Notes under the pieces: model-generated
What the model was told of the DNA's origin: nothing
Seen by the model: the letters and a program-made list of their open reading frames with translations, nothing else
Database searches by the model: none
Source: a virus
Strand: one strand, 5' to 3'
IMG/VR virus record: IMGVR_UViG_3300005827_000118
Location: 1 to 44,377 of that record
Length of the DNA: 44,377 nucleotides
In this document: positions 25,062 through 30,887 of the stretch, in pieces
How positions within the stretch are numbered: the first letter of the stretch is position 1
How the letters are laid out: every line of letters starts with the position of its first letter
Translations under genes and position numbers: made by a program

Positions 25062-25460
25062 TCACTCCGTAACAGGGGCGACAGGGGTTGTCGAGATGTA
25101 CAACCTGCTGCACGGGTTGAGCCCCATCAGCTCCATGAACTTCGCGTGCCGCTCGCCAGGGTCGACGTCGAACATCGCAACGATGAACTCCTGCCCGTAG
25201 GGGCTATCATGCGCGAACACCTCGCGCAGCGCGTCGATGGCCTTTCGGGTGAGCCGGGCAGACTCCGGCCCGAAGCACGACACCTCGAGATGGACCTGCA
25301 CGGCGTTGAAGTGAGCCTTCATGCCGATGCGGCACAGGTGCCGCTTGCTCGGAGCGGTCTGCATGACGTCGACCCACGTGTAGCCTGGGCCGTGCCGCCG
25401 CTCTTTCTCCGTCAAGTCAGCGTCCTCTACCTGCCTGAGTGCGATTCTGGAATCCTTCAC
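25062..25460 (-). CDS. GNAT-like protein A, GTG start coupled to terL
   Basis: 132 aa from the GTG at 25460, chosen for the GGAGAGGAGGACACA site; the GTGA overlaps the terL stop. The C-terminal half (YGQEFIVAMFDVDPGERHAK then FMELMGLNPCSRLYISTT) resembles the end of a GNAT fold and parallels the corresponding part of the next gene (ESYFMLEHMGFKYEG). It is shorter than a full acetyltransferase and no acetyl-CoA loop is seen. It may be a degenerate paralogue of the next gene or a virion protein with a GNAT-derived fold. Moderate confidence in the fold; function unknown. Confidence 0.55.
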   Translation of the reverse strand: MKDSRIALRQVEDADLTEKERRHGPGYTWVDVMQTAPSKRHLCRIGMKAHFNAVQVHLEVSCFGPESARLTRKAIDALREVFAHDSPYGQEFIVAMFDVDPGERHAKFMELMGLNPCSRLYISTTPVAPVTE

Positions 25461-27088
25461 TGTGTCCTCCTCTCCCGAAGTTCCTGGAACTCGTCGTAGT
25501 CGTAGGCGTTGCGCGTCTCCCTGCGCTTGCCGCGATGCAGAATCTCGTCGATGTCGTTCTCCTCGCCATACTGCCCAACCGCCTCGGCATCGAACCACGA
25601 GTAGATCACAGCCTCGGCCCGGTCGGGGCTGTCGAGGCCGTACTGCTCCTTCATGATTTCCTTGGGCACGATCGAGGTGACGCCGGTGTTCGGGTCGATC
25701 TTAAACTTGATGCTGGCGAACTGCGCGACGAGGTCGTCCTCGACGTCGCCGGTCGAGTCATACTCAGGCAGCGACACCATGCCGCGAATCATGCGGTCGC
25801 GCACATCCTCGAAAAGCTCGGCCTTCGCGAACTTCCAGCGAGACGGGTCGCTCGAGCCCCATCCGGCGTTGAACTGATCGACCGGGAAGCCCTTCGTGTG
25901 CAGGATGTCCCACACCGCAGCGCCGATGCCAGCCGTGTCGATGATGATGCGGTCTGGCCGGTCGGCGTCGGTGCAGCTGTTATACATGCGCATCACGCGC
26001 TGCGCCGTCTGGTCCGTCTGGCTCTTGCGCCAGCTGGTGAGCGGCAACACCTTATAGCCGTGGCGCGGGGCAAGCACCGTCGAGTCGTCGCCCATGCGCG
26101 CGACGTCCAGCGCCCACACGATCGGCTTCGTCACGTGGACCTCGCGGCCCACGCAGGACATCACAAGCTCGAGGGGGAACATCTGATCTGGCTCGCCGCC
26201 GGGGAAGCGGCCCAGGACGCGGACACGGTAGACGTCGGAGTTGATGCCGTAGCGGCGCGCGATGCTCTCGGCCTTAGACCTCGGGTAGAACGGAGAGTCG
26301 AGCGCGCTCATCTCGTAGTAGCAGAAGTCCTGCGGCGTCTGCGCCGCCTTGTACACGTAGCCTCCTGTGCGCGTCGGGTTCGTCGCCACCAGCATGAGAT
26401 TGTCCTCTTCCGTCAGCGCGTTCTCGATCGTCTCGAAGATCTTGTCGTCGACGCCGCAGCCTTCGTCGACCAGGATTAGCAGATGCCGGTTGTGCCGGCC
26501 CTGGATGCCCTCGGGCTTGTCCTTCCTGGCCGTGCGGCACTGGATGTACCACTCTTCCTTGTAGTCCACGTGCCAGAAGCGGTCGCCGCTCTTGTCGAAC
26601 ACGAAGCCCTGGTTGCAGAGCGGGGCCGGCAGACGACCGAACAGGCTCGAGAGTTCCTTCCACAACAGGTCGTACAGCTGGTGCTTCGTCGGCGCGGTAG
26701 CCAGCACGATCGCTTTGTAGCGCGTCAGCATGAACCACAGGCTGAGCGCGGCCATCAGCGTCGTCTTGCCGATGCCGTGGCCCGAGGTGATGATGACCTT
26801 CTTGCGTGGGTCGCGTGCCAGGGACTCAGCGGCCTTCGCTTGCTGCGGCGACAGGTGCAGCCCCAGGCAGTCGGCACAGAAGCCGACCGGGTCCATCGCG
26901 TAGACGCTGAACGTGTCGTACACGCTCCGCGCCTTCTCCGTCATGTCGTGGAACCAAAGGTCAGTCACAAGCATGAGGCAGGTATGCACCAAAGTATCCA
27001 CCTGTGTCCATCCCGCTCGTGACGGCCAAACGCTCGGAAAACGCCTGTCAAACGCCGGGAAGCCACGGCCCGCAATGCCTGGGACCAT
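25457..27088 (-). CDS. terL: Terminase large subunit
   Basis: Packaging ATPase and headful/cos nuclease, 543 aa if started at 27088. The ATPase domain has Walker A SGHGIGKT (residues 102-109), Walker B LLILVDEG (202-209) with the DE pair, and the coupling motif LMLVATNPTRTGG. The nuclease domain carries acidic centres WALDVARMGDD (Asp about 327) and RIIIDTAGIG (Asp about 383). EDDLVAQFASIKF follows near the end. Start choice: 27088 has GAGAGGACACC upstream with a 10-base gap. The first 48 codons have weaker G/C third positions and include a TATCCAC box, so a start at 26974 or 26944 (MTEKARSVYD), although without a visible ribosome site, is possible. It leads the late operon. Confidence 0.93.
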   Translation of the reverse strand: MVPGIAGRGFPAFDRRFPSVWPSRAGWTQVDTLVHTCLMLVTDLWFHDMTEKARSVYDTFSVYAMDPVGFCADCLGLHLSPQQAKAAESLARDPRKKVIITSGHGIGKTTLMAALSLWFMLTRYKAIVLATAPTKHQLYDLLWKELSSLFGRLPAPLCNQGFVFDKSGDRFWHVDYKEEWYIQCRTARKDKPEGIQGRHNRHLLILVDEGCGVDDKIFETIENALTEEDNLMLVATNPTRTGGYVYKAAQTPQDFCYYEMSALDSPFYPRSKAESIARRYGINSDVYRVRVLGRFPGGEPDQMFPLELVMSCVGREVHVTKPIVWALDVARMGDDSTVLAPRHGYKVLPLTSWRKSQTDQTAQRVMRMYNSCTDADRPDRIIIDTAGIGAAVWDILHTKGFPVDQFNAGWGSSDPSRWKFAKAELFEDVRDRMIRGMVSLPEYDSTGDVEDDLVAQFASIKFKIDPNTGVTSIVPKEIMKEQYGLDSPDRAEAVIYSWFDAEAVGQYGEENDIDEILHRGKRRETRNAYDYDEFQELRERRTQ

Positions 27089-27284
27089 TCACAGGTGTCC
27101 TCTCATCAAACTCCCGATAGGGAGATAATCGTTATCCGGGTGGAAAAAGTGGGTAGTCCGAAAAAAAAGACATTACCCACCCCTTCTGTTGAAAACTTTT
27201 CGATTCCTCAAGCATTATATAGGGATGGATTCAAGATCTCTTTCCACAGTTTATGCCTGGGAAAGACTATATATTATCCACTTA

Positions 27285-27451
27285 GTATCCAGGTTTAGCC
27301 CTACTCTCCCAACGACTTTCGCGTTTTTGGATACTCTGGGTAATCGAAATCAAAAGTTGACGAGTCAATTCAATCGCTCCCTATAAAGGAGTATCCACAT
27401 TACCCCCCTTCGTCCGCAAAGCCGCATGGCTCTAGTGCTAAACCTGGATAC
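27285..27451. repeat. 15-bp inverted repeat GTATCCAGGTTTAGC, arms 137 bp apart
   Basis: GTATCCAGGTTTAGC at 27285-27299 and its exact reverse complement GCTAAACCTGGATAC at 27437-27451. The arms flank the putative rightward promoter and the 27391 TATCCAC box. They could be two sites for one protein bridging a loop, or origin elements. Confidence 0.75.
27357..27387 (+). promoter_or_regulatory. Candidate rightward promoter with palindrome over the -35 element
   Basis: TTGACG (27357-27362) and TATAAA (27382-27387) are separated by 19 bases, longer than the ideal 17, so the promoter may be weak or activator-dependent. The -35 is part of the palindrome TTGAC-GA-GTCAA (27357-27368), which could be an operator. 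It points toward the early genes that start at 27797, leaving a leader of about 400 bases. Confidence 0.45.
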
Positions 27452-27796
27452 AGTGAAAGTAGCCACCTGTATCCACTCAGGCCGCTTTCGCACAGTGAAG
27501 CATCGGCGCTTCGCGGGCTGCGACCCTGGGTAAACATCAACTATCCACACTCGTATACCCCATGGGGGAATGCTGCCCGGTTTCGTACCCGGCCAGTTGG
27601 GAGAAAATTTGGAGTTCAAAATTTTGTGGGGGGCGGCGTCTGATGGGGGGGTACTCCCCTTGCGGAAGGCGCTTGGGGGGCCCCACCCCGGTAGCGCTGC
27701 TATATGAAGGCGGAAAGGCAGAGATGGCAGTGTGCATCGCTTGTTGTTCTCTTGGTTGGCAAGAGGACGTAGCACCGCAACCCCAAGGAGCACACC

Positions 27797-28066
27797 ATGT
27801 ACGTCACCATCACTACCCCTCGCGGCATCTCATCCTTCGAGCCCCGTAGCTCCTCGGCCCTGCGCCGCACCGTCACCACGCGTATACAGGCGCTGCGCCG
27901 CAGCGGCATCGCCGCAAGCATCGACCTCTACCTGCAACGGATCTCCGAATCCTGCGAAGAACTCGCGCAGGACGACGTGTGGGTCGCCGGGTGGACGCCG
28001 GAGAGCGGCTGGCGCGTCGCACATCAGCCGCAACTCGATGGAATCGTCGCGCTCATGGACGCTTAG
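27797..28066 (+). CDS. Hypothetical protein, first early gene
   Basis: 89 aa, ATG at 27797 with CCAAGGAGCACACC. The N-terminus YVTITTPRGISSFEPRSSSA is followed by a basic helix (LRRTVTTRIQALRRSGIAAS), then DDVWVAGWTPESGWRVAHQP. Net basic in the first half. No family recognised. As the first rightward gene after the control region it is likely expressed early, which would suit a host-takeover role, but nothing in the sequence proves it. Confidence 0.6.
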   Translation: MYVTITTPRGISSFEPRSSSALRRTVTTRIQALRRSGIAASIDLYLQRISESCEELAQDDVWVAGWTPESGWRVAHQPQLDGIVALMDA

Positions 28067-28070
28067 TTAC

Positions 28071-28106
28071 GGCGGCGGCAGCGAGACAGCGTCGCTTCGC
28101 TCCGCC
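28071..28106. repeat. GC-rich hairpin after the first early gene
   Basis: GGCGG (28071-28075) pairs with CCGCC (28102-28106), with an inner AGCGA/TCGCT pair. Similar (G)CTCG-CTTCG-type hairpins lie after other plus-strand genes at 30784-30804 and 38334-38354. There is no T run, so it is more likely an RNA-stabilising or processing element than a terminator. Confidence 0.45.
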
Positions 28107-28177
28107 CACCCCCGCTCCCCTGCCTCTTCACCCTTATGAGTCAACGCAGCATCGCCCAACTCGGTGCTGTTGCCGTC

Positions 28178-28228
28178 AGTTAGCAGGGTGCAAACGCAAG
28201 TTAGCACCCATGTATCCACAAGTTAGCA
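28178..28228 (+). repeat. Three AGTTAGCA direct repeats spaced 21-22 bp
   Basis: AGTTAGCA at 28178-28185, 28199-28206 and 28221-28228, i.e. two helical turns apart. The last two extend to CAAGTTAGCAC. A TATCCACA box (28214-28220) lies between copies two and three. The array ends 18 bases before the ATG of the DUF4326 gene, so a protein bound there would face one side of the helix and could block transcription or translation of that gene. Confidence 0.7.
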
Positions 28229-28246
28229 CACCCGAAGGAGCCCATC

Positions 28247-28663
28247 ATGCACAACAACAACACGAACCCGGCCTATCCGATCGAGGTCATCAACATCCGC
28301 CACTTGTGCGCTGTACAGGTCGGGACGATCATGTTCCGTATCGGTCGTGGCACGAGCCTGGGCAACCCCTACACGATGGACACAGAGGCAGACAGGGCCG
28401 AAGTAATTGAGCGTTACCGGCACTGGCTGTGGAACAAGATGGCCGAGCCGGGCTGGAACGCTCAGAAGGCAGCATTGCGTGCGATCATGGACGCGCAGGA
28501 CAGCGGAGTACGCGTGGTCCTGGCGTGTTTCTGCAAGCCCAAGGCTTGCCATGGCGACGTAATCGTAGCGGCTATTGGCTGGCTGCGGGGTCAGCCGACA
28601 GCGCTGGCGTTGACGCAGCGTTGGCGGTCGCCTCAAGGCGCTGGTTCCGGCGCTGCTGGATGA
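28247..28663 (+). CDS. DUF4326 domain protein
   Basis: 138 aa, ATG at 28247 with GAAGGAGCCCATC. Residues 12-110 fit DUF4326: VINIRHLCA, FRIGRGTSLGNPYTM, RAEVIERYRHWLWNKM and LACFCKPKACHGDVIVAAI, with conserved Cys and CH pairs that may bind metal. The domain's biochemical role is unsettled in the literature I know. The last 27 residues after the domain overlap the 3' end of terS on the other strand (28572-28663) and are probably unstructured. Confidence 0.82.
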   Translation: MHNNNTNPAYPIEVINIRHLCAVQVGTIMFRIGRGTSLGNPYTMDTEADRAEVIERYRHWLWNKMAEPGWNAQKAALRAIMDAQDSGVRVVLACFCKPKACHGDVIVAAIGWLRGQPTALALTQRWRSPQGAGSGAAG

Positions 28664-29207
28664 TATCGGCAGCGCCTTCGAGCGCGTCGGCGAGGTCGGT
28701 CGGGCTGAGCTTGGACTGAAACTCGCGGCGAGCAGGAGCGTAGGACTTGGGAGCGAGGCGTTCGGCGACGAATTGCCTCGCCCTGATCTGCTGGCCCTGC
28801 TTGAGCGCGTCGGTATGCGAGGTGATCGGGCGGTCGGCAATCTCGATCATCTGGTCGACGGCGTTGTGTGCAAGCGCAGCACGAGCGACATCATAGCGGC
28901 AGCGGAAGTCAAGCATATCGCCGTCATCGGTAGGCTCGACCAAGCACCTGTGAACAGCCAGGAAGGACGGCATGGAGGGCATAGAGCAGACAGACTTGAG
29001 CGGCTGGCCGTCGACGACGAACGCGAGGATATCGGCAACGCAGGGCTGCACCTTGGCCCACACCTCGCAGAGAGACAGCAAGGCATCGACGCGGTTCTTC
29101 GCGACAGCGTCGTTCGCTTCGCTCACGACACACGGCATCGCTTCATTCACCGTAACCGGCCCAGGTTGGGCCACAGAGGGAGCCTTGGGCTTCCGAGGAG
29201 ACGCCAT
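28572..29207 (-). CDS. terS: Terminase small subunit, isolated on the minus strand
   Basis: 211 aa from the ATG at 29207, preceded by GGAGGTAATATTC; a TTG at 29225 is also possible. The N-terminus is basic and Pro-rich (SPRKPKAPSVAQPGP). The middle has a helical region (VDALLSLCEVWAKVQPCVAD), then RCRYDVARAALAHNAVDQMI and EIADRP. KQGQQIRARQFVAERLAPKS followed by Y is the typical terminase small-subunit stretch (A------i-EiADd ... r-rvdarkWlasKlaPk-Y) that recognises and loads genome DNA. The gene lies about 1.5 kb from terL, with two rightward genes and the control region between. Its start shares a CATG with the rightward gene at 29206, and its end overlaps the DUF4326 gene. Confidence 0.78.
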   Translation of the reverse strand: MASPRKPKAPSVAQPGPVTVNEAMPCVVSEANDAVAKNRVDALLSLCEVWAKVQPCVADILAFVVDGQPLKSVCSMPSMPSFLAVHRCLVEPTDDGDMLDFRCRYDVARAALAHNAVDQMIEIADRPITSHTDALKQGQQIRARQFVAERLAPKSYAPARREFQSKLSPTDLADALEGAADIIQQRRNQRLEATANAASTPALSADPAASQ

Positions 29208-30051
29208 GAATATTACCTCCGTCAATCGTCAGTATGTTGCGGATTTGCGCATTCCGCGAAACGTGGAAGTGTGCTGGAACCCGGTTCGCAAGCGTTGCGA
29301 GTTCCACAGGACCAGCGAGCGCCCGGCGCGCTGCGTGCCGATCGACAAGATGCGTCTGGTCGACGCGGCTGCGAAGGGCCTGTGGGCCTGTGGAGAGGAG
29401 CAGGTCATGTGGTCCTGCTACCACGCAGGGCGCTTGCCCGACAAGCCCAAGGAGCACGACGAGCCGACAAGCTGGTTCAACCACTTCGACGGCAACATCG
29501 AGCCGCTGAATGACATGAAGGACGGCTCATGGTGGGAGTTCACACGCTGGCAATATGCAGGGCGCGAGACGGCCCGCACCAAGCTCTACGCCGAAGGGAA
29601 GATCCACGGCGAGGGCACAGCGACCGCCGAGGACATGAGGTGGGAGGAGTTGCCGGCCACGTGGGCTGGCGACCCGGACCGCAAGAGGCGCGAGCGCATG
29701 AGCCTGTACGGGCGCGCGACCTACGCCGAGTTCGCTCACACCTGGAAGGAGATGAACTACACGAAGGACGAGTTGGTCGAGTTCCAGCCCGTCTACGAGG
29801 AGCGCGCCGAGCAGTACGAGCTTTGCCTCGCGACGTGCCAGAACGGGCGCAACATCGGGTGCATCGACTACGAGGCCGAGGCTGACCTCAAGGCGATGAA
29901 GGAGCTTGGCTGGCATGAGGCCGGGATGCACGCTCAGATCGTCAACGACCTGATCGTGAGCCAGGAGCAGTCGGTCGAGGATTGGTTCTGCATGATTCAA
30001 CCCGGTGACGAGCCGGAAGGCCTGGGCGACGAGCCCTGGTACGAGGAATAA
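29206..30051 (+). CDS. Hypothetical protein with many Trp/Tyr/Cys
   Basis: 281 aa from the ATG at 29206, with CCGAGGAGACGCC upstream; the frame is open further left, but only inside the antisense of terS. It is rich in aromatic residues (SWWEFTRWQYAG, YGRATYAEFAHTWKEMNYTK) and has scattered Cys. The C-terminus is acidic (QPGDEPEGLGDEPWYEE). No family recognised. The beginning, VADLRIPRNVEVCWNPVRKR, looks like beta strands. It leads a run of closely spaced small plus-strand genes. Confidence 0.68.
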   Translation: MNITSVNRQYVADLRIPRNVEVCWNPVRKRCEFHRTSERPARCVPIDKMRLVDAAAKGLWACGEEQVMWSCYHAGRLPDKPKEHDEPTSWFNHFDGNIEPLNDMKDGSWWEFTRWQYAGRETARTKLYAEGKIHGEGTATAEDMRWEELPATWAGDPDRKRRERMSLYGRATYAEFAHTWKEMNYTKDELVEFQPVYEERAEQYELCLATCQNGRNIGCIDYEAEADLKAMKELGWHEAGMHAQIVNDLIVSQEQSVEDWFCMIQPGDEPEGLGDEPWYEE

Positions 30052-30778: not shown

Positions 30779-30783
30779 AGGCA

Positions 30784-30804
30784 GGGCCTCGCTCCGCTCG
30801 GCCC
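30784..30804. repeat. GC-rich hairpin after the 84-aa gene
   Basis: GGGCC (30784-30788) and GGCCC (30800-30804) enclose a TCGCTCCGCTC loop. No T run follows. It separates the small-gene run from ssb. Confidence 0.45.
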
Positions 30805-30887
30805 CCACAAGAATGTAAGACGGCGGGCCTTGGACGGTCCAGGGCTCGCCACAACGCCACCGAGTTTCGACACCGCAGGAGGACAGT

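Follow-up and report, generated by a model that had tools for sequence, protein, structure and literature searches.

A terminase small-subunit gene set apart from its large-subunit partner in a metagenomic virus genome

Placement and identity of the small-subunit gene

In the window analysed here, i.e. the whole of a 44,377-base record of an uncultured podovirus-like phage consisting of a single metagenome contig, the gene encoding the terminase small subunit (terS, 28572-29207, minus strand) is separated from the gene encoding the large subunit (terL, 25457-27088, minus strand) by a promoter-like region followed by two rightward genes. This separation is the true oddity of the locus. As a full explanation, it is probable that terS belongs to the leftward (late) arm of the genome but got separated from terL. 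The gene order is real and uncommon, and its components are ordinary.

The genome is divided in two. Its leftward arm is structural and extends from 27088 to about 2000; its rightward arm begins at 27797, reaches the record end and seems to resume at the record start. The terL gene matches PHROG 5902 (1.4e-49) and PHROG 2 (8.2e-43), and also annotated terL genes by tblastn. As in a canonical terS-terL packaging pair, both genes are on the same strand; they are not adjacent, since 1483 bp (27089-28571) and two opposite-strand genes intervene. A first-pass annotation of this DNA had placed terS inside the rightward module, at about 1.5 kb from terL, with which the coordinates and strands agree. 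It had also described terS as isolated on the opposite strand. This description does not hold, as terS has the orientation of terL and of the late arm and is opposite solely to the early genes that flank it.

The same annotation had proposed a profile search of the 211-aa product against terminase small-subunit families. In a Pfam profile search, this product matched PF20901 (Sf6_terminase) with an E value of 2e-14 and 53.9 bits (curated cut-off 27), over positions 5-101 of the 106 in the profile, and it also matched PHROG 1482 (terminase small subunit; 1.6e-15). The best sequence match was Sf6 gp1 (1.1e-6). An AlphaFold2 model, built with terS relatives in its alignment, has a core pLDDT of about 90. 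Structures of Sf6 gp1 occupied ranks 1-6 in the fold search with this model (probability 1.00, E about 3e-3) and were its sole convincing fold match, with a TM score normalised by target of about 0.5. Among the scanned minus-strand open reading frames (ORFs) of the right arm, only terS had a family match. Its codon score (0.224) was the highest of these ORFs; the next best reached 0.196, and the mean for shadow ORFs was -0.21. Since this score is positive but barely above those of the best shadow ORFs, the identification of terS relies on its matches to profiles and folds. Judged by its sequence and predicted fold, the product is a genuine Sf6-type terminase small subunit. In the usual mode of action, it would form an oligomer that recognises the phage DNA for terL.

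Alternatively, the 211-aa protein could be a DNA-binding protein that resembles terS and has another role, the true terS lying unrecognised elsewhere. Its gene is surrounded by early genes, the protein is longer than the open frames of its relatives (about 120-160 aa), and terS proteins are so variable in sequence that another one could escape recognition. However, all three lines of comparison (profile, sequence and fold) lead to terminase small subunits. Moreover, no coding-like minus-strand ORF was found between terL and terS, and the small minus-strand ORFs near terL matched no terminase family in a Pfam scan. The search thus yielded no rival terS beside terL, in line with the first-pass annotation, and we consider this other role very improbable.

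The region between terL and terS

The leftward and rightward arms diverge from an AT-rich region (27089-27796), in which the GC content goes down to 39%. This region holds two of the four best sigma70-like sites of the window, one on each strand; a promoter-like plus-strand site at 27189 is at chance level. The word TATCCAC occurs eight times in the window for 1.6 expected, and four of these eight occurrences are inside the region. These words resemble DnaA boxes, and a strict search for DnaA boxes across the window gave no more than expected by chance. Two further occurrences of TATCCAC lie nearby, at 26995 and 28213. The region also contains a pair of inverted repeats (27285-27303 and 27433-27451; 19 nt, 95%). 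It is likely that the early and late promoters are situated here, and the region may also be a replication origin. No RNA families or tRNAs were detected.

Two rightward genes follow. The first one (27797-28066) opens the rightward arm and encodes 89 aa with no clear family; it is supported as an ORF with a Shine-Dalgarno (SD) sequence (AAGGAG) and a positive codon score. The second one (28247-28663) is a DUF4326 gene (PF14216, 4.2e-18). Just upstream of the latter (28197-28229), CAAGTTAGCAC is found twice, exactly, 22 nt apart. It is a possible operator, and in a window-wide search allowing one mismatch the repeat was not above chance.

The DUF4326 gene overlaps terS tail to tail, its final 92 bp being shared with the terS 3' end, an overlap absent from the first-pass annotation. 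Its final 30 codons (28571-28663) score as non-coding, whereas terS has a coding score at that end, and the DUF4326 domain is complete, its match reaching position 81 of the 82 in the profile. We regard the tail as a read-through into antisense terS, i.e. a shadow of the terS codons and not an evolved protein. From these scores, the DUF4326 gene was probably brought up against terS, its frame continuing into the latter.

An assembly artefact would be another explanation, either terS or the stretch from 27.1 to 28.6 kb being misjoined in the metagenome contig. Indeed, the arrangement is known from one contig only, and close relatives were not found in our searches. Nevertheless, intact reading frames cross both junctions: the DUF4326 domain runs to position 81/82, terS is whole, and the starts of terS and of the gene on its other side abut with strong SD sequences. 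Such intactness is seldom left by a random join, and a misjoin appears very improbable.

An imperfect inverted repeat of 29 nt (76%) flanks terS (28518-28546 and 29181-29209) with an exact 12-nt core, AAGCCCAAGGCT. It was the longest of such repeats around the 43 genes tested. It is probably due to chance, both arms encoding KPKA. An inversion of terS through this 12-nt repeat was considered and rejected, because, as terS now lies, the DUF4326 domain is whole and terS is co-oriented with terL, and because both arms encode KPKA.

The head-to-head junction and transcription

On its other side, terS meets a rightward gene of 281 aa (29206-30051). This gene has coding-like codon use (score of about 0.4-0.46) and no detectable relatives: it matched no family in the Pfam and PHROG profiles and gave no tblastn match in phages, and its structure model (mean pLDDT 36) is unusable for function. 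The ATG of terS (29207-29205, minus strand) and that of the 281-aa gene (29206-29208, plus strand) share the palindrome CATG (29205-29208), so that the two coding sequences overlap by 2 bp. The SD sequence of terS (GGAGGT, 29215-29220, minus strand) lies within the 281-aa gene, 7 nt from the ATG, with an anti-SD duplex of -10.8 kcal/mol. That of the 281-aa gene (GAGGAG, 29195-29200, plus strand) lies within terS, 5 nt from the ATG, with a duplex of -8.9 kcal/mol. The sequence and these strong SDs bear out the earlier description of a CATG common to both starts, with each ribosome site inside the partner gene. As also described, there is no space for promoters between the two starts.

The start of the 281-aa gene had to be considered with care, as its frame is open back to 28972, where an ATG with a possible SD (GGAAGGA) is found. 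If this were the true start, the protein would have 359 aa, the head-to-head overlap would reach 236 bp and CATG would be incidental. However, the added codons have a non-coding score and atypical GC contents at the three codon positions (0.47, 0.65, 0.77), and the start at 29206 has a strong SD. The 359-aa form was therefore rejected with high, although not complete, confidence, and we hold it to be quite improbable.

The shared CATG was also considered as a special signal. A C precedes the ATG in 23 of the 34 starts examined, including nearly all of the rightward ones (16/17), and this candidate was rejected on that basis. Because C precedes most ATGs in this phage, an antisense ATG at the start of a neighbour is nearly automatic once two genes abut. 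The CATG coincidence is thus weak evidence, and the uncommon part is the zero-gap head-to-head junction.

The first-pass annotation had concluded that either mRNA must be initiated inside the partner gene or be supplied from elsewhere. This is not needed for the 281-aa gene, which would require no promoter of its own, as a rightward operon would read into it. An early rightward transcript would start in the 27.1-27.8 kb region and pass through the 89-aa gene, the DUF4326 gene, antisense terS and then the 281-aa gene. The statement stands for terS only, which does need a leftward promoter. This promoter would lie inside the 281-aa gene or to the right of it. No convincing leftward promoter was detected to the right of terS, the best sites matching 7/12 up to 30350 and one matching 8/12 in the 30779-30887 gap; such promoter scans are weak evidence. 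Early rightward transcription would in addition yield RNA antisense to the whole of terS, which could delay its expression. We infer all three of these steps, i.e. the rightward read-through, the leftward terS promoter and the antisense delay.

Such a layout could act as an excludon-like timer, in which early rightward antisense RNA or interference would hold terS off until late leftward transcription, so that packaging could not begin early. Reaching the 281-aa gene requires rightward reading across terS, unless a promoter lies inside terS, where the sites are only weak, and the terS mRNA would be fully complementary to the rightward transcript. The layout makes an overlap between opposing transcripts likely. 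However, the layout alone gives antisense RNA, whether functional or not, and no conserved arrangement of this kind was seen in the mapped relatives. It is accordingly unlikely that the start of packaging is timed by a head-to-head terS within an early operon, kept silent by antisense RNA or by collision up to the late switch. We retain the reading of terS as a late-arm gene separated from terL.

Relatives and comparison with known systems

Kin of this genome were found in viral contigs through the capsid protein only. They are HTVC010P-like contigs and Pelagibacter phages, with about 40-44% identity. No close relative was detected in viral contigs through terS, terL, the 281-aa gene, the primase, the portal, the tail or the internal virion protein, nor in genomes through terL and capsid, and there were no DNA-level matches in phages. 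PF20901 terS genes scored above the cut-off in 12 out of 30 related contigs. In the seven capsid relatives that were mapped, terS directly precedes terL and is co-oriented with it, with a gap ranging from a slight overlap to about 275 bp; terL was recognised in these seven contigs by its position and a Walker-A-like N terminus instead of a profile match. In four annotated phages with a PF20901-type terS, this gene likewise comes just before terL, in the same orientation. As terS adjoins terL on the same strand in these 11 relatives (seven mapped and four annotated), the order in the window is derived. In two contigs (L029 and L048), terS heads the late arm and diverges from an opposite-strand gene across 185-198 bp.

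The terL gene of the window had no match in any of the 30 related contigs and falls in PHROG 5902/2, so that the packaging region has probably been reshuffled. The genome is therefore a mosaic, its terL group (PHROG 5902/2, with P1 PacB-like hits) differing from that of the HTVC010P-like relatives that share its capsid and portal. Two routes, both compatible with these data, may have led to the present order: a relocation of terS, or an insertion that brought the promoter region and two genes in between it and terL.

This gene order would show that a separate expression of the terS-terL pair is possible. For annotators, it provides a concrete case of a terS that has to be looked for away from terL. 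A new kind of system is not indicated.

The closest known protein is gp1 of Shigella phage Sf6 (PDB 3HEF, 4DYC), to which the likeness is one of family and fold over residues 55-158. Compared with gp1, the window protein is extended by 54 residues at its N terminus and has a longer tail at its C terminus, and its gene is apart from terL. With the HTVC010P-like Pelagibacter phages and contigs, the window shares related capsid (40-44% identity), portal and tail proteins, whereas it differs in gene order, terS being directly upstream of terL in the seven mapped contigs. A known exception to adjacency is Yersinia phage PY100, in which terS and terL are non-adjacent (PMC3488191). Non-adjacency is thus common to both phages, but the terminase genes of PY100 are on opposite strands and widely separated, while those of the window are co-oriented and lie 1.5 kb from each other. 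Finally, divergent overlapping gene pairs are a known class that is strongly under-represented in prokaryotes (PMC2174442). In our count over annotated phage tables, one overlap was found in about 15 divergent pairs. The junction of terS and the 281-aa gene resembles these prokaryotic divergent overlaps in that the coding sequences overlap at their 5' ends, and its own overlap is the minimal one, 2 bp through CATG.
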